Source: Candidatus Peribacteria bacterium RIFOXYB1_FULL_54_35 (lineage in GTDB: Bacteria; Patescibacteriota; Gracilibacteria; Peribacterales; Peribacteraceae). From it: a stretch of 42,769 bases of DNA. Below the pieces are notes generated by a model. That model had not been told where the DNA came from. It saw only the letters and a list, made by a program, of their open reading frames with translations, and did no database searches. Positions 11,212 to 33,235 of the stretch are shown piece after piece. The stretch is taken from positions 1-42,769 of the forward strand of contig MFYJ01000007.1 of NCBI GenBank assembly GCA_001787755.1, read 5' to 3'. The translations under genes and the position numbers were made by a program. Each line of letters opens with the position of its first letter. Positions within the stretch are counted from its first letter, which is position 1.

Positions 11212-11898
11212 TCACACCAGTACGGCGACAGCTTCCTTCCCTTTCGGTGTGAGGCGGATGTGCTTGTTTCTGGCTTCTATGAGCCCTTCCTGCTCAAGTT
11301 TCAGCAGCTGTTTCGTCACGGTTTCCCGCGTGAGGCCTGTGGCGTTGGCAAGTTTTTCGTGCGTCATTTTTGTGGGTATTCTCAGAATGGGCGGGAGGAT
11401 GCTCCGTTCCTCCTTTTCGCTGAAGAGGCGCACGGCGGAGAGGATGCGTTCCTGCGCGCCAAGCATGGAGAGGAACTTCACCTGTGACTCATACTCCGCG
11501 ATCCGCTTGCTGAGCAGCCGCAGTGCCCGGAGGGCCACTTCCGGTTTCTTCCTGAGGAGTTGCACCATAAAATTCTCCGGCAGTGTGCAGATGAATGATC
11601 TCTGCGTGGTTTCCGCGTAGTGTTTTTCACCTGTCGTGAAGCCGATGTTCCCGAAAATGGATCCTGGCTTCAGGATGTCGAGCAACACCTTCTTCCCCTC
11701 CGGTGTGGTCTGGTAGATGATCACCTCTCCCTCTTTGAGAATATACATGTCTTCCACCTGTTCCTGCGGAGTGTAGAGGATATGGTGGTTGGGATACTCC
11801 CCGTGGTTGATTTTCTGCACGATTTCATTGATCTCTTCGTCCGACATAGTGGCGAAAAGTTCCACTTTCTTCAGGTACCAGACGGGAGGGCGGTGCAT
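11212..11898 (-). CDS. Crp/Fnr-family transcription regulator
   Basis: The 228-residue product has an N-terminal cyclic-nucleotide-binding beta-roll (about 10-125; EDMYILKEGEVIIYQ, then ILKPGSIFGNIGF) and a C-terminal winged helix with recognition segment MTHEKLANATGLTRETVTKQLLKLEQEGLI near 178-207. The ligand pocket lacks the classic cAMP RxE...RS pattern as far as I can see, and there is no N-terminal Fe-S cysteine cluster, so the signal is unknown. It has its own promoter and probably a leaderless message. It lies just upstream of the glycan operon, whose promoter carries a palindrome; control of that operon is an inference. Confidence 0.92.
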   Translation of the reverse strand: MHRPPVWYLKKVELFATMSDEEINEIVQKINHGEYPNHHILYTPQEQVEDMYILKEGEVIIYQTTPEGKKVLLDILKPGSIFGNIGFTTGEKHYAETTQRSFICTLPENFMVQLLRKKPEVALRALRLLSKRIAEYESQVKFLSMLGAQERILSAVRLFSEKEERSILPPILRIPTKMTHEKLANATGLTRETVTKQLLKLEQEGLIEARNKHIRLTPKGKEAVAVLV

Positions 11899-11940: not shown

Positions 11941-12870
11941 CTATGGCTGTTCTGTGCCGAGAACGTGTCCTTTGAGCGTTTCCAGTACAACATCGAGATC
12001 CTCGTTCACAAGGATGTGATCGAAGAGCTCGCTCCGTTCCTCGAAGAAATCGAGATCTCTCTCCGCGTTCTTCATGCGGTCCTGGATGTGGCGTTCGGTG
12101 TCCCGCCCGCGGCTGCGCAGACGGTGCAGGAGCTGTGAGAGCATGGCTCGCCGGCTCCTGCCCGGGGGGAGGAGACCAAAGGAGAGAATAGATCTTCTCC
12201 CGTAGTATGCGCTGAGTCCCTGCAGCAGGTGCTGCTCGGTAATGACAACGGGAATCTTCCCCTTGTCCCATATGGCCTGGATATCTTTCTCCTGGTAGCC
12301 GTACCAGCGCTTCTCGGAATGTGAGGGAATCTGTGTTGCTGCAATAATTTTCTGCTCCTTCTGCATGCGTGTGAACTCCGTGGTGCTCGTGTGGTTGTAC
12401 TCGCCTTCGTCACCTCTCTTCTTTCTCCGCGTGGTTACGATGGGAACGTTTTCCACGTAGTCGCCCAGCACCGTTGTGAGGAGCCGGCTTACGGTGGATT
12501 TGCCAACGCCGGACGGGCCGTACAGCGCGACAATGTATCCTGGGAATTCCAATTTCTGTTCCACTGTGAGAGGCTGGGAAACAGCAAGTTCATAGACGAC
12601 ATCGTAGATGCGCAGCCCCTGTGCGTTTGTCCTGAGCAGCTGCATGCGTGGCAGAACCTTCTGTCCGATGCGGAGGGTGCAGTTTGCCGGAATGCGCATC
12701 TGACCCATGACGCGGTTTCCATCCTGGAGTTCAATGAGGCCAATGATGAACGGGCCTGCACCGAACCCTTCGGAGGGGTGGTTCACTGTTGTGAATGAGA
12801 TGACGGTCCCTTCCTGCATTTTGCGTTTGCATGCAGTCTTTGCCCTGTAGATGACGGAGGGATTAGACAT
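11941..12870 (-). CDS. DUF35 OB-fold fused to a guanylate-kinase-like P-loop domain
   Basis: A 309-residue two-domain protein. Residues about 16-96 match the OB-fold half of DUF35 proteins (EGTVISFTTVNHPSEGF ... FIIGLIELQDGNRVMGQMR ... LRIGQKV), which in archaea bridge thiolase and HMG-CoA synthase; the usual N-terminal zinc ribbon is missing. Residues about 110-305 form a guanylate-kinase-like domain: Walker A GPSGVGKS (118-125), TTRRKKRGDEGEY (146-158), WYGYQEKD near 189-196, and RLRSRGRDTERHIQDRMKNAERDL (split: about 250-273). GMP-site motifs are altered: YGT is YGY, and the IDVQG strand reads ITEQH. The ATG at 12870 overlaps the thiolase stop by eight bases; an upstream in-frame extension into thiolase was rejected. 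It may be a scaffold plus true GMP kinase, or a kinase acting on a pathway intermediate. Confidence 0.85.
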   Translation of the reverse strand: MSNPSVIYRAKTACKRKMQEGTVISFTTVNHPSEGFGAGPFIIGLIELQDGNRVMGQMRIPANCTLRIGQKVLPRMQLLRTNAQGLRIYDVVYELAVSQPLTVEQKLEFPGYIVALYGPSGVGKSTVSRLLTTVLGDYVENVPIVTTRRKKRGDEGEYNHTSTTEFTRMQKEQKIIAATQIPSHSEKRWYGYQEKDIQAIWDKGKIPVVITEQHLLQGLSAYYGRRSILSFGLLPPGRSRRAMLSQLLHRLRSRGRDTERHIQDRMKNAERDLDFFEERSELFDHILVNEDLDVVLETLKGHVLGTEQP

Positions 12871-13978
12871 GGATATGTTCCAGAATGTGGATACCGCAGC
12901 TGGCGCACGCGCCGCCGAAATTATGGGAGAGTCCCCAACGGTTGCCTGAGTTCCTGAGTTGCTTGCTGACATCAATGAGCTGCTTGATGCCGGTGGCAGC
13001 AACAGGATGGCCGCATGCTTTCAGACCTCCGCTCGCGTTGATGGTGGGGACTGGATCTGCCTGCTCATACAGTTCTATGCCTCTCCCTGGTTCCGCGAAA
13101 CCCAGATCCTCCACGTTGATGACTGCTGCAATCGAGAAGCAATCGTGTACTTCGATGTGTGAAATGCTGCTCCGGTCGGTGTCTGCCTCCTCCAGTGCCT
13201 TCTCCATCGCTTTCTTCGTGGCAGGGAACGAGGTGATGCTCTCGCGCTCCGTCAGACTTACAGCATCAGAAGCGAGCTGGGAAGCGGCGAGCTTCATATC
13301 ACTCTCGAATGCCGTCGAGAGGATGCAGGCTGCCGCACCGTCGCTGATGGGGGAGCAGTCGAGCAGGCAGAGCGGGTCTGCCACCTTGGGGCTCTGGGAG
13401 ATCTTCTCTGCGGGGATCTCCGCACGGAACTGCGCGAAAGGATTTGCCACTGCATTGCGGTGGTGCGCCGCGCTCACAGTATTCAGCTGTTCGCGTGTGA
13501 GGCCGTACTCGAACATGTACCGCTGTGCGACGAGCCCGAAAATGCCTGGAAATGTGAGGCCACAGGGGGCATCTTTCTCGCTGTCTGCCGCTCCCATGAG
13601 CGCAGTGGATACTTCCGCGGGTGGCACGTCTGTCATCTTCTCCACGCCGAGCACCAGTACAGTCTTCGCACGGCCGCTCTCGAGGAGGGCACAGGCAGTG
13701 TGCAGTGCGACTGCGCCGGATGCGCAGGCGGATTCCACGCGGAGAGCAGGGGGCCTGTGCGGAAGGAGCGACGAAGCGAGCGCACCGAGGTGAGCCTGCG
13801 CGTTCGTCCGTTCGGCGATCATGTTCGCCACGATGACCGTATCAATATCGAGTGCGGTGCAGGGGGCGCTTTCGAGGGCGCCGTCTATTGCCTCGTACAT
13901 GAGGTCGCGGATGCCTTTTTCCCACCACTCTCCGAAGCGGGTCTGCCCTGAGCCGATGAGGAAAACATCCGTGTTCAT
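12863..13978 (-). CDS. Archaeal-type acetoacetyl-CoA thiolase
   Basis: Condenses two acetyl-CoA to acetoacetyl-CoA, the first mevalonate step. The 371-residue product belongs to the SCP2/archaeal thiolase branch: nucleophile Cys85 in VESACASGAVAL, HDCFSIAAV with its His, and NASGGLKACGHPVAATG near the end with the catalytic His. The ATG at 13976-13978 overlaps the HMG-CoA synthase TGA (ATGA), and its own stop overlaps the DUF35-kinase start. An upstream open frame to 14332 runs inside the synthase gene and is not part of it. Pairing with synthase and DUF35 is the arrangement known from archaeal thiolase/HMG-CoA synthase complexes. Confidence 0.93.
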   Translation of the reverse strand: MNTDVFLIGSGQTRFGEWWEKGIRDLMYEAIDGALESAPCTALDIDTVIVANMIAERTNAQAHLGALASSLLPHRPPALRVESACASGAVALHTACALLESGRAKTVLVLGVEKMTDVPPAEVSTALMGAADSEKDAPCGLTFPGIFGLVAQRYMFEYGLTREQLNTVSAAHHRNAVANPFAQFRAEIPAEKISQSPKVADPLCLLDCSPISDGAAACILSTAFESDMKLAASQLASDAVSLTERESITSFPATKKAMEKALEEADTDRSSISHIEVHDCFSIAAVINVEDLGFAEPGRGIELYEQADPVPTINASGGLKACGHPVAATGIKQLIDVSKQLRNSGNRWGLSHNFGGACASCGIHILEHIHV

Positions 13979-15012
13979 GCTTGTGCTGTCACAGCGTGCC
14001 CCCGCAGGCTGTACTGTCCGTACGTGAGGTAGCGAGGGGTGCGCGTATCGGTTGGGAGGAGCACTCCATCGCGGAGCATGGTGAAGAGGAATGCATCGGA
14101 GCCTGCTCCGGAACCGTAGGATACGAGGAGAATTGTCTCTCCTTCCTTCGCTTTCTGCAATACATGTGCGAGTCCCAGGGGGGAGCAGGCACTGTAGGTG
14201 TTGCCAATATGGGGCACGATGAACCCGTGTTTCATCTGTTCTTTCGTGAATCTGAACTCCTTGGCGATCTTGCTCGGGAACTTCGCATTCGGCATGTGCA
14301 GGATGACATGGTTCACATCTTTCACGTCGCATTCTGCCGTATCCAGTATTCCTTTCGTAGCCTCGCGCACGTGGCGGAAGTACGCCGGCTCGCCGGTGAA
14401 GCGCCCGGCGTGGCTGGGGTATTTGTCATGGGCGCCGCGCCAGAAATCGGGGGTATCGGTGGTGAAGGAGAGTGTGTAGTCGATGCGGCAGAGTGCATTT
14501 TTCGAGCGCTCCGGTCCTATGACGAACGCGGCGGCACCCGCGGCAGCTGTGTACTCCAGAACATCGCCGGGGGCGGCCTGTGCCGTATCGCTCCCTATGG
14601 CAAGCCCGTAGCGGATCTGCCCGGCGCGCACCATGGAATCCACGATCTGCATGCCGGCCGTGCCCGCTTTGCAGGCGAATTCCAGGTCTGCGCAGTGGCA
14701 GAACGGATCAAGATCCAGCGCATCCGCCACCATGCCGCTCGTGGGTTTGACGGCGTACGGATGGCTCTCGGAGCCGACGAACGATGCGGAGATCTGTGAC
14801 GGCTTCACTCCGGCGATTTCTATCGCCTGCTTGGCTGCTTCGTATGCCATGGTGAAGGTGTCTTCCCCTTCGCCGGGAACCGTTTTTTCCTGCACTCCCA
14901 GCCCACTCTCGATGGCATGGGCATCCTGCTGCCACTCCGCAGCGATGTCTGCGGTGCGAATGCGGTCACTCGGCAGGTACATGCCAAAACCGATGATGGC
15001 AGATTTGTTCAT
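13975..15012 (-). CDS. Hydroxymethylglutaryl-CoA synthase (archaeal type)
   Basis: Joins acetyl-CoA and acetoacetyl-CoA to HMG-CoA. The product, 345 residues from the chosen start, is the short archaeal form. The nucleophile Cys is in LEFACKAGTAGMQ (residue 114), and VPHIGNTYSACSPLG near 250-265 forms the second conserved block. Two ATGs compete: 15021 overlaps a TGCTACAAT -10 box, so transcription should begin at or near the second ATG at 15012, which gives MNKSAIIGFGMYLP, the usual family opening; I chose it. It is followed by thiolase through a four-base overlap. Confidence 0.93.
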   Translation of the reverse strand: MNKSAIIGFGMYLPSDRIRTADIAAEWQQDAHAIESGLGVQEKTVPGEGEDTFTMAYEAAKQAIEIAGVKPSQISASFVGSESHPYAVKPTSGMVADALDLDPFCHCADLEFACKAGTAGMQIVDSMVRAGQIRYGLAIGSDTAQAAPGDVLEYTAAAGAAAFVIGPERSKNALCRIDYTLSFTTDTPDFWRGAHDKYPSHAGRFTGEPAYFRHVREATKGILDTAECDVKDVNHVILHMPNAKFPSKIAKEFRFTKEQMKHGFIVPHIGNTYSACSPLGLAHVLQKAKEGETILLVSYGSGAGSDAFLFTMLRDGVLLPTDTRTPRYLTYGQYSLRGHAVTAQA

Positions 15013-15019
15013 CCGGGGC

Positions 15020-15028
15020 ATTGTAGCA
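15020..15028 (-). promoter_or_regulatory. Extended -10 box before HMG-CoA synthase
   Basis: On the minus strand TGC (15028-15026) and TACAAT (15025-15020). The box ends seven bases before the ATG at 15012, so the transcript would be leaderless and the operon has an internal promoter at synthase-thiolase-DUF35. No clear -35. Confidence 0.5.
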
Positions 15029-15048: not shown

Positions 15049-16248
15049 CTATCTGGCGTGTTTTTTGTGGGCGGATGCAAGGGTTTGGTTGGCCTGTGCT
15101 GCGAGGAGTGAAATCTCCCCTGCGAGGACTGCTGCTCCTATACTCTCGGCAAGCTGCCTGCAGGGGTGGAGAGACGTGCGGTTCTTCAGGAGCATTTGCA
15201 GGCACTGGTTCTGCGCGGGGAGCGCCGTGCCGCCGCCGCGGACGCCGATGAGCAGAGCGGGGAGGCGGGTGGAAACAGCGAGATCGTCACCGCGGAGTTC
15301 CACTGTCGTATCTGCGAGGGAGCCTTCTACAACGTGCGCCGCGTCCTGGCCGGTTGCCAGGTACAGCGCAGCAATGACGTTGGCGGCATGGAGGTTTGCT
15401 CCAAGTGCTCCCGCAATCTCCGATCCTTCTCTCAGTTTTGCATCCGCGACCGCTGCCATATCTGTTGCAGTTGTCTTCAGCATGGAGGAGATCACTGCAC
15501 CGGGAATGAGTGTCTTCGCCGTCACTTCGTACCCGCGGCCGCGGTCATGCGTCCGCCGGCTCGGCTTCTTATCGCTGTCGACATTCCCGGCGATCGTGAT
15601 GAGGCGGGGAGAGTGGTCCTGTATGTTTTGAACGATCCAATCGCCCACAGCCTGTGCTGCGATCGTCACCATGTTCATGCCCATGGCTTCATCCGTATCA
15701 CAGGAGAGTGTGAGGAACACGTACTGTCCCCTTACGTCGACATCAGAGCTCATCACATGCAGATGGCTGCTTGTTTCCTCTGCAATTTGACTCCATTTGG
15801 CTTGTAGATGCCGTAATTTTTTAGTGAACATCTGTACACCATCCGCGCTTTTCCCCCTCTTTTTCTCACCGGAGGCTCTACCGATTCGGAACGCGATGGA
15901 CCGGGTCATGCCGTGGTGGGTTGAGAGCGTGTGTACGTCCGTCTCGCAGAGCACTTTGCATCCCCGGTTGACGCTCGCAACGAGTGCGCCTTCGGTGGTC
16001 GCAAGCGGCAGGTGGACAGTTGTCTTCTCACCGGAGCTGCACAGGAAAGTGAGCGGTCCGGCATACCCAACCGGCAGGGGAACCATGCCGAACATCTGCT
16101 CACAGTTTTTTTCGTCTGCTTCGCCGGCATGTTCATCGTCTGTGCGCGTGTGTGCAAGATCGAGTTTCAGTTCCTGCTCCAAGCGTTTGCGTCTTTCATC
16201 GCAGCGTTCACCGGGAGAGAGGCCGTCTCTGAGGTTTCGTGAGTCCAT
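15049..16248 (-). CDS. HMG-CoA reductase (class I-like)
   Basis: Reduces HMG-CoA to mevalonate with NAD(P)H, the committed step. The 399-residue soluble protein lacks the membrane anchor. Landmarks: FGMVPLPVGYAGPL (53-66), LATTEGALVASVNRG with catalytic Glu86, DEAMGMNMVT with the nucleotide-binding turn and Asp near 185, SDKKPS with the catalytic Lys, and GGGTALPAQNQ in the C-terminal part. The NVDSDKK and short-enzyme pattern fits the archaeal/class I branch. The start at 16248 is preceded by a TTCCAC/GTGGAA hairpin that includes a CACAAT box. It lies 27 bases upstream of the synthase ATG at 15021. Confidence 0.94.
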   Translation of the reverse strand: MDSRNLRDGLSPGERCDERRKRLEQELKLDLAHTRTDDEHAGEADEKNCEQMFGMVPLPVGYAGPLTFLCSSGEKTTVHLPLATTEGALVASVNRGCKVLCETDVHTLSTHHGMTRSIAFRIGRASGEKKRGKSADGVQMFTKKLRHLQAKWSQIAEETSSHLHVMSSDVDVRGQYVFLTLSCDTDEAMGMNMVTIAAQAVGDWIVQNIQDHSPRLITIAGNVDSDKKPSRRTHDRGRGYEVTAKTLIPGAVISSMLKTTATDMAAVADAKLREGSEIAGALGANLHAANVIAALYLATGQDAAHVVEGSLADTTVELRGDDLAVSTRLPALLIGVRGGGTALPAQNQCLQMLLKNRTSLHPCRQLAESIGAAVLAGEISLLAAQANQTLASAHKKHAR

Positions 16249-16339: not shown

Positions 16340-16834
16340 CTAAGAAAGCAGCTTCAGCATCAGATGCATGCGATCGATGTATCCTGCTCTGACATAGAAT
16401 TCGTGCGCGGAGATGTTCGGGGCGAAACAATCGACAAACGCGCAGGTGCACCCCTGTGTGCGGAAATATTCTTCCATTGCCTGCATCAGGCGCGTGCCCA
16501 AGCCGGATTTGCGGTGTTCCGAGGTCACGATCAGTTCGAGGATGGAGCCACTCTTCGACGGGTATGATTCCAGTGAGTCGATTTCGTTCTGTTCGGAGAT
16601 AATGCCGACGATGCATCCTGCAATGCGGCCATCCTCCTCTGCGACGAAGATATTCCCGGAGCACTTTTCCACCCGCTTGAGCGTGCAGTCGATGTATGCG
16701 TCACCGTTGAATGCCGGAAGATCCCGCGTCCGTTTGAGCGTGTCAAGATCGGAGACGTACTCCTGTAGTTCTTTGATGCATGACTTGATGCTTTCTCTGT
16801 CCGATGGCCGGTACTCGCGGATGACCGCTTCCAT
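16340..16834 (-). CDS. GNAT-family N-acetyltransferase
   Basis: Transfers an acetyl group from acetyl-CoA to an amine. The 164 residues show the GNAT core: beta4 with IAGCIVGIIS, then the acetyl-CoA loop in LELIVTSEHRKSGLGTRLMQAMEEYF (HRKSGLGTRL is the Q/R-x-x-G-x-G/A pyrophosphate loop), and the end HEFYVRAGYIDRMHLMLK. Acceptor unknown. It lies inside the mevalonate cluster between the decarboxylase and HMG-CoA reductase, yet has its own extended -10 box six bases before the ATG, so it may be leaderless and separately expressed. A role in acylating a pathway enzyme is only a possibility. Confidence 0.9.
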   Translation of the reverse strand: MEAVIREYRPSDRESIKSCIKELQEYVSDLDTLKRTRDLPAFNGDAYIDCTLKRVEKCSGNIFVAEEDGRIAGCIVGIISEQNEIDSLESYPSKSGSILELIVTSEHRKSGLGTRLMQAMEEYFRTQGCTCAFVDCFAPNISAHEFYVRAGYIDRMHLMLKLLS

Positions 16835-16911: not shown

Positions 16912-17922
16912 TTAAGGGATCAAGCATGCACCTGGTCCTGTCTTTGCCTCGAAGAGGGCGCATCCTTCCTGTGCCCGCGCGAAGGCCAGCACCCGGTCAC
17001 GCGCTTCCTCCGTGCACAGAAGCTGCACCGTGGGGCCGGCATCCATGGTGTAGAACACGGGAAGGTGCTCGCTCCTGCGCAGCTCTGTGATGTCTCTCGT
17101 GATACGGTGCGTGTCCTCCGTAAGGTAGTCGAGGGGCGGCGTGCTCGTTCGCATCACATGGTGCATGTCGATGCAATCTTCCTCCACCACGTGCTGCAGC
17201 TTCTCAAAATCCTTCGTGAGGACCGCGTCGATGCACTCCCGCTGCCGGCGGGTCCTGATGGCCTGCACCCGTGCAGCGTAGTGCGGGCTGGTGTGCGCGG
17301 TCGGGTGTCCTTCTGTGGAGCCGACTTTCTTCTCGTGCATGGAAGGGACCAGAATGACATTGTAGAGAGCCCAGTGATGCTCGTCTGCATACTGTCTGCC
17401 GTAGGCGCTCCCGATTGCATCGCTCTCTCCGGCGAGGAGCGCGGAAAAGCCCCCGAAGATGCTGCGGGCAGCGGAACCAGATCCGAGCCTCGCTAAGACG
17501 CTCGTCTGCTCGTCTGTAAGTTCGATTGCCGGGAGAATGAGTCCCTGGATGGCGCGGGCAAGGCAGCTGAAGACAGCGGAGGAGGAGGCAAGTCCGACTG
17601 CAGGGGGGATCTGAGAGCGCACCGTGATCAGAGCGGAAGCAGGGAGAGCGTCCTCAACGCCGAGCGTGCGCAGGTACTGCTTCACAAGCTCCAGCGTCTT
17701 CCCAAAGCGCTGGATGTGCACTGCCCCAAGCTCTTTCTCCGAGCCATCCGGGTTGAAGGAGCGCACGCTGAGGACATCAGCATGGTCCAGCGTGATCTCC
17801 ACGGTCGGACTATCGAGCGTCATGGAGAACGAGTCTGCCATGGGGAGCCGTAAGGCATCATTCCGGTTGCCCCAGTACTTAATCCAGGCGCTGTTCGGTG
17901 TAGACCCCGCAGTGACACTCAT
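16912..17922 (-). CDS. mvaD: Diphosphomevalonate decarboxylase family
   Basis: GHMP-kinase-fold enzyme that phosphorylates and decarboxylates mevalonate diphosphate to isopentenyl diphosphate. The 336-residue length is typical. Landmarks: SAWIKYWGNRN (family IKYWGK), IPPAVGLASSSAVFSCLARA as the phosphate loop, LGSGSAARSIFGGFSAL, and FYTMDAGPTVQL with the conserved Asp. The first motif departs from the usual ALIKYWGK (WIKYWGN). Phosphomevalonate decarboxylases of archaea are close relatives, so the exact substrate is open because no phosphomevalonate kinase or isopentenyl phosphate kinase is seen nearby. Its ATG overlaps the mevalonate kinase TGA by four bases. Confidence 0.88.
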   Translation of the reverse strand: MSVTAGSTPNSAWIKYWGNRNDALRLPMADSFSMTLDSPTVEITLDHADVLSVRSFNPDGSEKELGAVHIQRFGKTLELVKQYLRTLGVEDALPASALITVRSQIPPAVGLASSSAVFSCLARAIQGLILPAIELTDEQTSVLARLGSGSAARSIFGGFSALLAGESDAIGSAYGRQYADEHHWALYNVILVPSMHEKKVGSTEGHPTAHTSPHYAARVQAIRTRRQRECIDAVLTKDFEKLQHVVEEDCIDMHHVMRTSTPPLDYLTEDTHRITRDITELRRSEHLPVFYTMDAGPTVQLLCTEEARDRVLAFARAQEGCALFEAKTGPGACLIP

Positions 17923-18869
17923 ACATTGAGAATGGAAAAGTGTGTGGGGACTGCGCGCAGGATCTTCTTGCGGTCTTCGTGGAGCACCAGAAGCATACCC
18001 CCGCCGCCCGTACGCCCCCCGGCTCCGATGATTTTCGCGCTGCCGCCGGAGCTCTCTATCTTCTCCACGAGTTTCTGCACACTCTCCGGAACCACGCCCA
18101 GTGCCACCTGTGCGCGGTGATGCTCACGCATCACGTTCCCAAGGTCCTCGCCTTCCCGGAGTTTCTCCGTGCAGCGGCCGATGGTCCTCAGTGCGGGCTC
18201 CAGTTCCTCTCTGCGCTCCGTAATCCATGCAATGAGTTCCGGGGTCGTCTCGTTCGGTGCACCTGTATCTATGAGCATTGTGTTCCTGAGGAGGTTTCGG
18301 GGCAGCTTAATTGTTTCCGGCTGGTTGTCCTTTTGAAAGAGAGTGGGGGAATTGTTCCATATCACAGAGAAATCCAGACCGCTGTGGCCTGGATTGAGCT
18401 CATCTTCAATTTCCAGTGCTTTCTCCCTGCAATCTTTCCCGAGCAAGCATCGGGAAACAGCAATGACAAGTGCGGTGGATGACCCCATACCTTTTTGAAG
18501 CGGAATATTGTTTTCAATGGTGAGATCTCCGGAGCATTTGCCGCACCGTGCGATGATATGCTTCAGGTATTCCTGCCACTCCGGTTTCTGTGCAATTTCG
18601 CTCCAGTGGATCCGCAGGTCTTTTGTGTCTTTCTGGTTTTCCAGTGTCACCCGACTTCGTCCGTTGCGGCGGACTACGCCGGGTTCCGCGTCATGTTTGC
18701 TACGGATGTTTGAAAAACTACACCGCTCACGGGTGTCGTGGATCTCCACATTCATTGTGAGCGGCGATGGCACGGCGATCCCCGGGTAGCCGAAGACGAC
18801 GGCAAACTCTCCGGTCAGGATAATTTTCCCAGGAGCAGAAGCCGATCGATGAGAAATTCTCGTTGTCAT
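17919..18869 (-). CDS. mvk: Mevalonate kinase (GHMP family)
   Basis: Phosphorylates mevalonate with ATP. From the ATG at 18867-18869 it has 316 residues: SASAPGKIILTGEFAVVFGYPGIA (about 9-32), NNIPLQKGMGSSTALVIAV as the GHMP phosphate loop, HSGLDFSV with the catalytic Asp, and IIGAGGRTGGGGMLL near the end. GEF replaces the usual GEH of mevalonate kinases. An alternative start at 18944 overlaps the uppS TGA as ATGA and would add MKRTASAPGN plus residues read through a palindromic repeat (18865-18916); the chosen ATG is itself inside that repeat. Operon order uppS-mvk-mvaD supports co-transcription. Confidence 0.88.
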   Translation of the reverse strand: MTTRISHRSASAPGKIILTGEFAVVFGYPGIAVPSPLTMNVEIHDTRERCSFSNIRSKHDAEPGVVRRNGRSRVTLENQKDTKDLRIHWSEIAQKPEWQEYLKHIIARCGKCSGDLTIENNIPLQKGMGSSTALVIAVSRCLLGKDCREKALEIEDELNPGHSGLDFSVIWNNSPTLFQKDNQPETIKLPRNLLRNTMLIDTGAPNETTPELIAWITERREELEPALRTIGRCTEKLREGEDLGNVMREHHRAQVALGVVPESVQKLVEKIESSGGSAKIIGAGGRTGGGGMLLVLHEDRKKILRAVPTHFSILNV

Positions 18870-18940: not shown

Positions 18941-19624
18941 TCATCCGCCAAATCGTCGGGAACGCTCCGTGTACGCATCCACCTCTTTCGCCAGGTCTCC
19001 TGCGGTGAACTCGGGGAATTTTTTCTGAGGAAACGCCCATTCACTGTAGGCGGATTGCCAGAGGAAGAAGTTGCTCGTGCGCTTCTCGCCCGAGGTGCGG
19101 ATGATGAGATCGATGTCGGGGAGTTCGGGGTGATCCAGATATTTCCGTACAGAATCCTCTGTCGCATCTTTGGTGCTTTGCATTTTCCGGATGGCGCGGA
19201 CGATCTCGTCGCGTCCTCCGTAGTCCAGTGCGAGGTGCAGCGTGAAAGCGGTCATAGTTTTGCTTTCCTCTTCTATATCACCGATGAGAGTTGCCAGCTT
19301 CTCCGGAATGCGGTCTTTGCGTCCCGAGTGCACCAGGCGTGTTTGTTTCTCCCGGAAGAGGTTCCTCTCCTTCACGAGGTACTCCTCGAGCATTCCCATG
19401 AGCATCTCAATCTCTTTCACGTCCCGTTTCCAGTTCTCGGTGGAGAAGCACCAGATGGTCAGTACGGCAATGCGGGGATCCTTATGGCACCAGTCCGTGA
19501 GGGACCGGAAATTGGCCACTGCTTTCCGGTGGCCTTCCCACGGGTCCAGCGCATGCTTCCTGGCCCAGCGTCTGTTGCCGTCCGGAATGATGGCGATGTG
19601 CAGGGGGGTCGTTCTTTTCTCCAT
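18941..19624 (-). CDS. uppS: Isoprenyl (undecaprenyl) diphosphate synthase, cis type
   Basis: Cis-prenyltransferase that extends farnesyl diphosphate with isopentenyl diphosphate to the lipid carrier for cell-wall and glycan export. The 227 residues show IAIIPDGNRRWARKH near 11-25 with the catalytic Asp, FSTENWKRD near 60, LDYGGRDEIVRA near 133, and RTSGEKRTSNFFLWQSAYSE near 175-195. The canonical RTSGExRLSNF is RTSGEKRTSNF here. Its TGA overlaps a possible mvk ATG at 18944. It directly uses the product of the mevalonate cluster. Confidence 0.95.
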   Translation of the reverse strand: MEKRTTPLHIAIIPDGNRRWARKHALDPWEGHRKAVANFRSLTDWCHKDPRIAVLTIWCFSTENWKRDVKEIEMLMGMLEEYLVKERNLFREKQTRLVHSGRKDRIPEKLATLIGDIEEESKTMTAFTLHLALDYGGRDEIVRAIRKMQSTKDATEDSVRKYLDHPELPDIDLIIRTSGEKRTSNFFLWQSAYSEWAFPQKKFPEFTAGDLAKEVDAYTERSRRFGG

Positions 19625-29224: not shown

Positions 29225-32200
29225 ATGCGCCTCACCCGCATTCTGGTCCTGAGCTGCATTGTTCTTCTCCTTCCCATGCAGGGGGTGCACGCCCAGGGCA
29301 GTTTTTTTGATGTGTTTTTTGATCTTGATTCGCAGCCGGGGCAACTCGATCTCCCGCCATTTGGCGAGATTTCCCCCCCGTCGCCGGATATGTCTCAGTT
29401 CGAGAGCTTCTTCGGTATCTTCTCTCAGATCAATATTCCAGAGCGTACGGAATGTAATCCCTGTGATGTACTGAAGGCAGAACTCGAGGCGGCACAGGAA
29501 GAAGCTGCGGAGCTTGAGGATGCTTTTCGCGATGTGTATTCCTCTCTTCATGAGGCATCTCAGGAGCGTGTGCGTCTGGAGCGGTCTCTCCGGGAAGCGG
29601 AGCATCTTCTCAGTGATCTCACCGATCCCCGCAGTTGGGCAGAGTCCGGTGGGAAGCGTATCGATACATCTGATCTGCGTGTCATGGAAACATACAATGC
29701 AGAGCTGTGGGAGTCCTATAAGTCTGGTCTCATAACGTCGAATGACTACCAGCAGCGTCTTACTCAGGGGTTAACCGGCGAGGAACGGGAGGGAAGGAGA
29801 CAGGAAATGATCAAGAATATCCGCAAGCAGGTAAAGGATCTCAAGGGGCAGCTCAAGGAGACGAAGGAGAAGGAACAAGGTTTTTCTGAGCAGGCAGATG
29901 CGCTTGAGGAACTGTTTACTGCAGTGCGGGAACGCACCGAGGATCTTCTGCGGAAGCTTGAAGAATGCTTGAAGCGGTGCACGGAGGAGCAGGTGAACGT
30001 GATCGATGACTTCGGTATGGGGCAGGCGGAGGGGCCGAACCTGCTCGAGCGCCTCTTTGGCTGGATAGTGGGCTATGAGCCGGAACCGCCGGCAGATACG
30101 CCCGCGGATGATCTTGGCTTCCCACCGCTGGATGTTCCATTGCCGTCGGCATTGTTCCCCCCCGGTTTCCTTGATTCGCTGTCCATTCCTCCCTCGTCAG
30201 GCTTCAGTCCCGAGATTGTTCTTCCCCCGTTCCCGCTTGTCCTGCCGGAGTGTGCCGAGTGTGATGAACTTCTCCAGATGATTCAGGAGATGGAAGATGA
30301 ACTGGAGGCGGTTGTAGAAGATTTGGATACTCTGAATGACGAACTTCTGGAGGCTCTGCTTGATGAGCACAATGCAGAACGGAGGCGGGATGAAGCGCAG
30401 AAACGACTCGAAGCATTTACGAATCCGCGGTCATCGGCTCAGTCAGGCGGCCGCAGCATCACTTCCGCCGATCTTGAGGTCATGCGGGACTACAACCGCA
30501 GCCTCTGGCAGCAGTACCGCAGCGGAGACCTTACCGCACAGGAGCTTGAGCAGAAGTGGGAGGAAGGGCTTCCAGATGCTGAGCGTGAGCAGATGAAGGA
30601 GCAGCAGAAACAGGAGCTCGAGCAAGAACTTGCGGACGCGCAGAAGGAACTGGAAGAGGCAAGTGCGCGTGTGAAGAATCTTCTGCAACTTTTCAATGAA
30701 ACACTCGAAGTAGTGAATGATCTTCTTGAGGAGCTGCAGGAACTGGAGGAGGAGTATGATGAGTGCATACAGGAGTGCACCGAAGAGAAAGAAATAAAGC
30801 TCGGTGGTTTTGGCGTGTTCCTTTCCCTGCCGGATGGTCTCCAGGATGGATCGGAGTCTGGTGCCGGCGGCACAGTGACATTCGGCGACGGAGTGGTGAT
30901 ACAACCGGGGCAACCGATCGATGTCAATGATCTTCTCAAAAAGTCGGATCAGTTCGATCCGCAGACGGGAGAATTGGATCTGGGTGGGATAAAGTTTGAG
31001 TTCGACGATCAGAATTATCTCGTCCCCAGTGGCGGAGAAGCTGATGTTTCTCTCGGTCTGCCCGAGGAGAGAGAAGACAAAGGGTTTTTCTGTGGTACTT
31101 TCGGGCTTTTCTGCCCAAAGGCGGAAGAGCTTCCCCCGCTGGCATTCGGTGATTTTGTTGGTTGTGTCGTTTCAGGATCTCAGGACCCATCGTGCACGCC
31201 ATTTGATGCGAATGAGGATGGTGCAGTGGATCTTGCGGATGCGGGAATGTTCCATCCCTTCCTGCAAGGCCCGGGATCGATGGAGATTGATCTGAACATC
31301 CATGGCATGGATGGTAACGACGCAGTCAGTGTTCCAGATCTGCAGTTATTCGGTGACTGTCTCAGGGGGGCACCGGGCACCTGTGATGGGTTGGGTGTTA
31401 CGCTCCGTGGAGGCGGAGGAGAGGACACGCCGTTCGGGGTGGGGGATTTTGGGCTCGGCTTGAGTGGAGGCCCGGGGAACGACATTCTCTTCAGCGATCC
31501 ACTGGATAATCTTATTGGAGTCCAGGGCAATGATAATCTGGCGGGAGGTCCGTTCCCTCCGGATTTCTTTGGGCCGGGATCCGGTCCTCTCGATGATTTC
31601 CATCTCTTCGGGCCCGGAGGGGAACCGATTCCGGTGCCTCAACTACCGGTGCCCGGGCAGATGCAGAATTTTGGAGGATGTCTGGACGGCTCCCTCACGA
31701 ATGGTGTGTGTCAGGAAGTGCCCATTCTCCGTGTAGATCTCCAGCCCGGCGAGAAGCTGCAGTGCAGCGTGACAGTCATTCGGGTTGGGAACAAACGGAT
31801 TATCATTGTGAAGTGCAGGAAGGTCAGGGAGGGGGTCCAGTGTCCGCGGGAGCAGTATCCCACTGCAGATACCTGCCGCAATGCGTGCCCCCGTGGTCAG
31901 GAATGTGTGCTCAATGAACAAACGAAGTGTTTCACATGCATGCCGGCGGTTCCTGCGTGTCCTGATCTTGCCTACACGGAACAGTCTGTTTGCCAGCGTG
32001 AGTGTATGCAGGGGCAGTGCCAAGCAAGGAATGTGGAGGGTGCCCAGTGTTACTTCTGCGTACCTGTAGAGTATCCGGATGATTGCGTGGGGAATGGACT
32101 CTTCAATGACACAACCAGTTGCCTGCTTGAGTGTGAGAGCCAGTCGTGCGTTGTGACGGATGATGGCTGTGTGCAATGTCTCCCGCTGGATCATGAAGAT

Positions 32201-33235
32201 TTCGCTGCCTGTCCCGACGGGCAGTGGACCAGCTACAGTCAGTGCAATGCATCATGCCCGAACGGCTCCTGTAAGTTCGCAAGCAGGTTAGGCGACAATA
32301 GCTGCTTCGTCTGCGGCCAGTGTCCGAGCGGCACGTACTACAATCCGCAGGATTGCATGAATGCATGCAATGGGGTGGAGTGTGTGCTCAGCAACAGTGC
32401 CAAGATTCATGGGGAGAAAGGATGTTATGAATGTAAGCCGGTTACCACTCCGCAACCGCAGCAGTGTGATGCACCGACGAAGACAGAAGCTCAGTGCCAG
32501 AGCAGCTGCAATGGTACCTGCGTCAAATCTTACACGCGCGACGACGGGGTGAAGTGCTATGAGTGTGTCCCAAGCCAGACGCCTTCCTGTCCGGATGATG
32601 CGGTTTCTTCCTGCAGCGAGTGCCCCAGTGGTTCTGAGTGTTACACAGAGAATGACTGCATCTTCTGCAGAGCGGTGGACCCTGGGCCGACATGTCCCAG
32701 CGGTACGACAGGTGACAGGAGTGTCTGCGAAGCACAGTGTGCGCCGAGAGGCGGGACATGTGTGCTGGAAAACAGCTGCTACAGTTGCATCGTCTTCAAC
32801 TGTCCCTCGGGGACCTACAAGAATGAATGTCCGGGAAGTTGCGCCAATGGGTGCACTGTCGTGGGGGAGCAGGGAGGTGTGAAGTGCTACCAGTGCAAAC
32901 AGAGTTGCGAGGACGTATGCGCCGGTCTCGGCCTTGAAGTTGCGAAGGACTACACGAGCTACATTCTCGGTGAACTCAACGGGTACACCTGCGTCTCCGG
33001 GGCCAACATCAGTGTCCAGCGTGCGACGAGCGGGGATTGTGAGTGTCTCTCCGTCCCGCAGATCACAGTGGATACCACGCCGCCGGTCTGCAGAGGCACT
33101 CCCTGCGGAGACGTGGCCTGCGGCTCACAGCAGAGTTGTTCCGGCGGCGAGAATACGACCATCACTGTGACGTGTAACTGGGGCGGGTGGGAGAAGATAG
33201 ATGAGTTCCGCTTCCGGCCTATTGTCGGTCAGTAA
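29225..33235 (+). CDS. Giant secreted cysteine-module protein (1336 aa)
   Basis: No known family covers this protein. A signal peptide (MRLTRILVLSCIVLLLPMQG, cleavage near HAQ) leads to two related coiled-coil hairpin modules: residues 77-252 (CNPC ... CLKRC) and 343-518 (CAEC ... CIQEC), each framed by a Cys pair at either end and each carrying DPRS/NPRS, SGG and DLxVMxxYNxxLWxxYxSG at mid-point. Residues about 643-725 are dockerin-like (DANEDGAVDLADAGMF, then MDGNDAVSVPDLQLFGDCL). Residues about 748-775 resemble an RTX repeat (GPGNDILF, QGNDNLAGG). Residues 873-1224 hold nine modules of about 39 residues, each with exactly six Cys and ending C-x2-C (CFTC, CYFC, CYEC and so on). A Cys-rich tail follows, with no membrane anchor. 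Probably a surface or released adhesion/scaffold protein; disulfides and calcium binding are inferred. Confidence 0.9.
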   Translation: MRLTRILVLSCIVLLLPMQGVHAQGSFFDVFFDLDSQPGQLDLPPFGEISPPSPDMSQFESFFGIFSQINIPERTECNPCDVLKAELEAAQEEAAELEDAFRDVYSSLHEASQERVRLERSLREAEHLLSDLTDPRSWAESGGKRIDTSDLRVMETYNAELWESYKSGLITSNDYQQRLTQGLTGEEREGRRQEMIKNIRKQVKDLKGQLKETKEKEQGFSEQADALEELFTAVRERTEDLLRKLEECLKRCTEEQVNVIDDFGMGQAEGPNLLERLFGWIVGYEPEPPADTPADDLGFPPLDVPLPSALFPPGFLDSLSIPPSSGFSPEIVLPPFPLVLPECAECDELLQMIQEMEDELEAVVEDLDTLNDELLEALLDEHNAERRRDEAQKRLEAFTNPRSSAQSGGRSITSADLEVMRDYNRSLWQQYRSGDLTAQELEQKWEEGLPDAEREQMKEQQKQELEQELADAQKELEEASARVKNLLQLFNETLEVVNDLLEELQELEEEYDECIQECTEEKEIKLGGFGVFLSLPDGLQDGSESGAGGTVTFGDGVVIQPGQPIDVNDLLKKSDQFDPQTGELDLGGIKFEFDDQNYLVPSGGEADVSLGLPEEREDKGFFCGTFGLFCPKAEELPPLAFGDFVGCVVSGSQDPSCTPFDANEDGAVDLADAGMFHPFLQGPGSMEIDLNIHGMDGNDAVSVPDLQLFGDCLRGAPGTCDGLGVTLRGGGGEDTPFGVGDFGLGLSGGPGNDILFSDPLDNLIGVQGNDNLAGGPFPPDFFGPGSGPLDDFHLFGPGGEPIPVPQLPVPGQMQNFGGCLDGSLTNGVCQEVPILRVDLQPGEKLQCSVTVIRVGNKRIIIVKCRKVREGVQCPREQYPTADTCRNACPRGQECVLNEQTKCFTCMPAVPACPDLAYTEQSVCQRECMQGQCQARNVEGAQCYFCVPVEYPDDCVGNGLFNDTTSCLLECESQSCVVTDDGCVQCLPLDHEDFAACPDGQWTSYSQCNASCPNGSCKFASRLGDNSCFVCGQCPSGTYYNPQDCMNACNGVECVLSNSAKIHGEKGCYECKPVTTPQPQQCDAPTKTEAQCQSSCNGTCVKSYTRDDGVKCYECVPSQTPSCPDDAVSSCSECPSGSECYTENDCIFCRAVDPGPTCPSGTTGDRSVCEAQCAPRGGTCVLENSCYSCIVFNCPSGTYKNECPGSCANGCTVVGEQGGVKCYQCKQSCEDVCAGLGLEVAKDYTSYILGELNGYTCVSGANISVQRATSGDCECLSVPQITVDTTPPVCRGTPCGDVACGSQQSCSGGENTTITVTCNWGGWEKIDEFRFRPIVGQ

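Follow-up and report, generated by a model that had tools for sequence, protein, structure and literature searches.

What does a kinase domain do at the end of a scaffold protein in a mevalonate operon? The question is raised by one contig of Candidatus Peribacteria bacterium RIFOXYB1_FULL_54_35 (MFYJ01000007.1), analyzed here as a single stretch of 42,769 nucleotides (the window). An earlier note, made from the letters of this stretch, had described a gene in which a DUF35 half is followed by a guanylate-kinase-like half. Comparison of 57 genomes of the source family, Peribacteraceae, a group of ultra-small Peregrinibacteria, suggests that the kinase supplies a phosphorylation step which seems to be missing from the only isoprenoid route of this family.

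The fusion gene and its operon

Both halves are recognized by Pfam in the domain search that the earlier note had proposed. OB_ChsH2_C (PF01796, equal to the DUF35 OB domain) covers residues 19–72 with 38.9 bits against a cut-off of 27.1, and Guanylate_kin (PF00625) covers residues 114–300 with 58.6 bits against 25.2. The Walker A motif stands exactly where the note had placed it and reads GPSGVGKS. The overlap with the thiolase gene that it had reported amounts to 8 nt, shared by the fusion ATG and the thiolase stop (ATGTCTAA). The structure model of the fusion, obtained with AlphaFold2 from 40 fused sequences, has a mean pLDDT of 89.6 and a weak linker near residues 100–104.

All genes of the same strand from the thiolase through UPPS lie upstream of the fusion (Table 1), and the order UPPS-MK-decarboxylase-HMGR-HMGS-thiolase-fusion is repeated in the related genomes read. 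The fusion adjoins the thiolase and an archaeal-type HMG-CoA synthase, so that its location in a mevalonate operon, as first described, is upheld. In the source genome a GNAT acetyltransferase gene sits between the HMG-CoA reductase and decarboxylase genes. A CRP/FNR-type regulator gene lies directly downstream of the fusion, and its orthologue adjoins the fusion in the genome G254 as well. Sigma-70 promoter matches within the operon did not exceed chance level. Elsewhere in the window, an open frame of 1336 aa lacks any Pfam match at E 0.001.

Table 1. Coordinates of the genes and domains discussed (positions in the window unless a locus or contig is named)
Feature	Position	Strand	Remarks
Fusion gene, DUF35 OB domain + guanylate-kinase-fold domain	11941..12870	(-)	309 aa, ATG at 12870
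N-terminal helix + DUF35 OB domain, residues 1-96	12583..12870	(-)	best structural match 6esq_E, Z 12.1
Guanylate-kinase-fold kinase domain, residues 109-309	11944..12546	(-)	Walker A 118-125
Kept residues of the kinase domain	within 11944..12546	(-)	K124, R148, Y158, Y190, R250, R252, R254, R265
Thiolase, acetoacetyl-CoA thiolase-like, PRK06064 type	12863..13978	(-)	stop overlaps fusion start
HMG-CoA synthase, archaeal type	13975..15021	(-)	TIGR00748, 393 bits, above cut-off
HMG-CoA reductase	15049..16248	(-)	PF00368
Mevalonate decarboxylase	16912..17922	(-)	KYWGN + GSTEGH residues, like mevalonate-5-phosphate decarboxylase AthPMD (6n0x)
GHMP kinase, mevalonate-kinase-like	17919..18869	(-)	groups with bacterial MK
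Undecaprenyl diphosphate synthase family gene (uppS)	18941..19624	(-)	first gene of the conserved cluster
CRP/FNR-type regulator	11212..11898	(-)
GNAT acetyltransferase	16340..16834	(-)
1336-aa open frame	29225..33235	(+)
Second-lineage decarboxylase	L049:11579-12577
Second-lineage decarboxylase	L052:8612-9760
Second-lineage decarboxylase	L143:10798-11835
Kinase-only gene of G017	L048:9501-10427	(-)	TTG start possible
Partial duplicate of the fusion C-terminus	G161:C71:44115-44243	(-)	43 residues

The OB half

Modelled alone, the N-terminal half reached a pLDDT of 89.2. Its ten best structural matches (Z 8.9–12.1) belong to DUF35-type subunits, most of them from thiolase-like complexes, while the eleventh falls to 6.9. 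The best of them is 6esq_E, the scaffold subunit in the archaeal thiolase/HMG-CoA synthase complex; it also came first when a profile of the OB half was compared with all PDB sequences (E 2.3e-8). With sequence and structure in agreement, the assignment of this half to the archaeal scaffold type is borne out.

Residues 4–96 of the OB half align to residues 2–128 of 6esq_E, which suggests that the N-terminal helix has been retained and that about one zinc-ribbon length is absent. Solved DUF35 proteins bind zinc (PMC6996347). As the earlier note had described, the fusion has no zinc ribbon, here the four-cysteine one at the N-terminus: the full protein contains only two cysteines, C14 and C64, and in the model the helix leads directly into the OB strands. 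The fusion therefore resembles the archaeal scaffold in its OB fold, N-terminal helix and neighbours (thiolase and archaeal-type HMG-CoA synthase), but differs from it in having no zinc ribbon, in carrying a C-terminal kinase and in belonging to a bacterial host. From fold, sequence and gene neighbours we infer a scaffold role for this half, joining thiolase and HMG-CoA synthase.

The kinase half

The kinase half has the whole fold of guanylate kinase (Z 24.7, rmsd 1.8 Å over 186 residues), with a TM of 0.89 to the yeast enzyme 1gky. Among the kept residues of Table 1, R148 (yeast R38) is retained in all but one of the 43 genomes of the family that encode just two GHMP proteins, and the others are invariant in 43/43. 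In yeast guanylate kinase we take Y50 and Y78, corresponding to Y158 and Y190, to contact the acceptor phosphate, and E69, S80 and D100 to recognize guanine. The latter three positions are changed in all 43 genomes, E69 to A, S or T, S80 to Y and D100 to E (yeast numbering). The name "guanylate-kinase-like" given earlier thus holds for the fold and fails for guanine recognition. Judged by its residues, the domain is one in which the ATP and acceptor-phosphate sites have been kept and guanine recognition has been dropped.

Profile scores were below the cut-offs of two kinase families: 74.3 bits for guanylate kinase (TIGR03263, cut-off 160.45) and 24.7 bits for PhnN ribose bisphosphokinase (TIGR02322, cut-off 156). 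An ordinary Gmk is ruled out by the replaced residues, by the score under the cut-off and by a separate Gmk with the usual guanine-binding residues in the source genome (L002). The fusion shares with Gmk/GUK1 the entire fold, the P-loop, the acceptor-phosphate residues and the lid arginines, but has new invariant motifs, for example R-x-YGY and LLPPG. It gave no match to AA-kinase (PF00696, NF040647) or GHMP kinase (PF00288) domains, and animal-type phosphomevalonate kinase (PF04275) was absent from its Pfam matches at E up to 1. In contrast to the GHMP phosphomevalonate kinases, it lacks the GHMP fold, Gmk being the nearest one. Animal PMVK also has an NMP-kinase fold.

Distribution of the fusion

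The full-length fusion is present in 49 of the 57 genomes of the source family, among 288 genomes of the class that were searched. In the 48 other genomes the homologues are 43–69% identical over the full length. Named relatives are "Candidatus Peregrinibacteria" MAGs. The earlier note had allowed that related genomes might hold two separate genes, joined here by an assembly error or a frameshift; the 48 further fused homologues rule this out, and the fusion stands. PF01796 was detected in exactly 49 of the 288 class genomes, once in each and every time inside the fusion, and no stand-alone DUF35 protein was found among them. Beyond the source family, matches in the class were only Gmk-like. 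Across 380 phylum genomes a profile search likewise gave, outside the family, only the kinase part in open frames of about 190–280 aa without the OB half. No relatives were found in plasmid records.

The fusion co-occurs with mevalonate decarboxylase: 49 of the 57 family genomes have both, and the remaining eight have neither a full-length fusion nor a decarboxylase. One of these eight, G017, has a kinase-only version with intact active-site residues, and no decarboxylase, GHMP protein, UPPS or dxr was found in that genome. An intact kinase where the pathway genes are not found counts against a pathway kinase. The G017 gene has no ATG before the P-loop and is in antisense orientation next to secY and genes for ribosomal proteins. 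In G121, G143, G176 and G208, of the same family, mevalonate decarboxylase, dxr and UPPS were all not found, and these bacteria are apparently isoprenoid auxotrophs or users of unrecognised genes.

The apparent gap in the mevalonate pathway

The complete Peribacteria genomes published in 2016 were reported to have the genes leading to mevalonate-5P and those from mevalonate-5PP on, a "near-complete" pathway in which no gene was named for the step between the two (PMC4736985). By PF00288, exactly two GHMP proteins, the MK-like kinase and the decarboxylase, are present in 43 of the 49 fusion genomes, and no GHMP PMK above cut-off was found anywhere in the class (288 genomes). An AA-kinase IPK above cut-off was found in none of 60 genomes searched, a cut-off which two IPK-family proteins of family f6 also miss, so that a score below it is no proof of absence. 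Those of the weaker AA-kinase matches that were inspected turned out to be PyrH, ProB-like and aspartokinase-like proteins, and an AA-kinase IPK elsewhere in the genome was rejected on this ground. Six sampled family genomes have a single AA kinase each, PyrH where read. All these absences depend on MAGs and on the sensitivity of the HMMs, and another, unrecognised kinase may be present elsewhere in these genomes. As dxr is absent from G000, the mevalonate route is apparently the sole source of IPP there.

Family f6, another family of the class, includes two genomes (G047 and G138) that lack the fusion; in both, an AA kinase of the IPK family adjoins the decarboxylase. We count this arrangement as support for an isopentenyl phosphate kinase in the fusion.

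Kinase decay beside a PMK-like gene

In six fusion genomes (G137, G154, G164, G180, G275 and G281), a different decarboxylase stands next to a third GHMP protein. The two genes form an inverted pair in the usual decarboxylase slot, split over two contigs in G281. The third protein has the PMK motif KGSGxD..A..GG and clusters with PMKs in the tree, although this fork has a support of only 93/91 with one archaeal MK as alternative partner, and by general score the protein is best matched by mevalonate kinase models. The GHMP kinase of the operon falls with bacterial MKs (100/97).

In five of the six genomes, all but G154, the fused kinase has lost 11–15 of 63 conserved positions, whereas the OB half has kept 9–11 of 11. 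Y158 is lost in 5/5 of these copies and Y190 or R265 in each of them; the copies of G164 and G281 are without the Walker lysine as well. The five copies belong to only two lineages and represent two events rather than five; for this reason the Fisher value of 3e-6 for decay against PMK presence, calculated over related genomes, is not relied on. In G154 the PMK-like cassette is present and the fused kinase is intact. The usual decarboxylase is found in G278, a close relative of G154, and the two together fit a recent swap. Such decay is predicted if the fused domain is a kinase of isopentenyl phosphate or of phosphomevalonate; neither a pure scaffold nor a nucleotide sensor would lead one to expect it.

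The decarboxylase and the choice of step

Which monophosphate, then, would the kinase use? Whether isopentenyl phosphate or mevalonate-5-phosphate is preferred hinges on residues of the decarboxylase. The closest solved relative of the window enzyme is 6n0x, the phosphomevalonate decarboxylase (PMD) of Anaerolinea thermophila bound to mevalonate-5-phosphate; the specificity of PMD was converted to that of DMD by mutagenesis (PMC9254496). Relative to 6n0x, 6n0z, probably the engineered variant, has N changed to K (KYWGK) and H to M. The reference DMDs from mouse, Streptococcus, Streptomyces and Limosilactobacillus all have K and M. The lysine is regarded as a mark of DMD and its loss as a mark of the monophosphate enzyme (PMC3857490; PMC11052028).

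In 41 of the 43 two-GHMP genomes the decarboxylase shares the N and H of AthPMD. These residues imply that in most such genomes the product would be isopentenyl phosphate, which still requires a kinase, and they favour an isopentenyl phosphate kinase over a phosphomevalonate kinase. G099 and G269 have a different decarboxylase with K and H, an intact fused kinase and no PMK; there, a phosphomevalonate kinase would fit better. Together with the six genomes that have a PMK-like gene, these two make eight non-standard genomes, whose decarboxylases, so far as they were compared, come nearest to that of Anaerolinea, which makes their substrate uncertain. A kinase accepting both intermediates is possible.

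Proposed function and rival explanations

We consider the chances evenly balanced that the fusion combines a DUF35 scaffold with a non-orthologous isopentenyl phosphate kinase. Its OB half would replace the archaeal DUF35 scaffold and link acetoacetyl-CoA thiolase to HMG-CoA synthase, while its C-terminal kinase would phosphorylate a monophosphate intermediate that none of the cell's other known enzymes handles. This intermediate is most likely isopentenyl phosphate, converted to isopentenyl diphosphate, because the neighbouring decarboxylase has the residues of a mevalonate-5-phosphate decarboxylase. The route would run from mevalonate through mevalonate-5-phosphate and isopentenyl phosphate to isopentenyl diphosphate, with the isopentenyl phosphate kinase tethered close to the entry enzymes of the pathway. 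The fuller claim, that a Gmk-derived IPK arose independently of the AA-kinase family, was built into the scaffold and completes an alternative mevalonate pathway in Peribacteria, is put forward tentatively, at a little under even chances.

The main rival, unlikely in our estimate yet to be taken seriously, is a non-orthologous phosphomevalonate kinase, with the decarboxylase acting on mevalonate-5-diphosphate as in the classical route. It would fill the same pathway gap, placed by the 2016 paper precisely at mevalonate-5P to mevalonate-5PP (PMC4736985), and would account for the same decay pattern. The window decarboxylase, a member of the diphosphomevalonate decarboxylase family, exceeds the cut-off of TIGR01240, and G099 and G269 combine an intact kinase and a decarboxylase having the DMD-like lysine with no GHMP PMK. 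The N/H pattern in 41/43 decarboxylases speaks against it. If this rival were right, the fusion would share its reaction class, monophosphate to diphosphate, with GHMP PMK and animal PMVK. A mevalonate kinase in the fusion, with the operon GHMP kinase serving as the phosphomevalonate kinase, would explain why the latter has GEYAV like reference PMKs, mevalonate kinases having typically GEHAV. We find this quite improbable: the operon kinase groups with bacterial MKs, shares their SGxD motif and has mevalonate kinase models as its best matches. The fused kinase, for its part, retains residues for an acceptor phosphate, which are unneeded for a hydroxyl acceptor.

The earlier note had offered either nucleotide sensing or action on a pathway intermediate. 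A nucleotide sensor or MAGUK-like protein-binding module, regulating the thiolase/synthase complex without a metabolic role, would agree with fusion to a scaffold and with the MAGUK guanylate-kinase domains lower in the structural match list. It is improbable, since 43 genomes show no variation at the Walker lysine, the tyrosines for the acceptor phosphate or the arginines of the lid, and since regulation alone does not predict decay accompanying a PMK-like gene in two lineages. The sensing half of that proposal is consequently disfavoured by the strict conservation of catalytic residues, and the metabolic half is favoured, narrowed by the pathway gaps and kinase decay to a monophosphate-to-diphosphate step. 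That a second GMP or other NMP kinase was fused by accident is suggested by a fold identical to that of guanylate kinase, but it is hardly credible given the guanine-binding residues replaced in all copies, the score of 74 bits against a cut-off of 160, the separate Gmk and the ties of all 49 copies to mevalonate genes.

The proposed isopentenyl phosphate kinase would share its reaction and pathway place with the AA-kinase IPK of the mevalonate-5-phosphate decarboxylase route in haloarchaea and Chloroflexi, and the residue pattern of the window decarboxylase is the same as in Anaerolinea PMD. Unlike the AA-kinase IPK, the fusion has an unrelated P-loop fold and is joined to a scaffold. The earlier note knew of no described fusion of this kind, and a full-text search of openly licensed papers agreed: it gave no description of a fusion of DUF35 and guanylate kinase, the one paper matched being unrelated. 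We rate the scaffold type, the fold and the proposed reaction as known, and their combination and the origin of the enzyme as new.

If the proposal is true, the phosphorylation gap noted in Peribacteria since 2016 is filled by a former nucleotide kinase that has come to phosphorylate an isoprenoid intermediate, and a broken classical route becomes a complete alternative one, like that of haloarchaea and Chloroflexi. The scaffold would then bear a later enzyme of its own pathway, with the first and last mevalonate steps in one polypeptide. Genomes in which the kinase has decayed and the scaffold has been kept, where a substitute exists, offer a natural comparison through which purified proteins can put the claim to the test.

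Additional observations in related genomes

A second decarboxylase lineage occurs in eight genomes of the family. The members read (Table 1) have NTGQD in place of the catalytic DAGP motif, and the lineage has a C-terminal HLF. In G161, a stretch past the end of the fusion gene is 60% identical to the fusion C-terminus and represents a partial duplicate.
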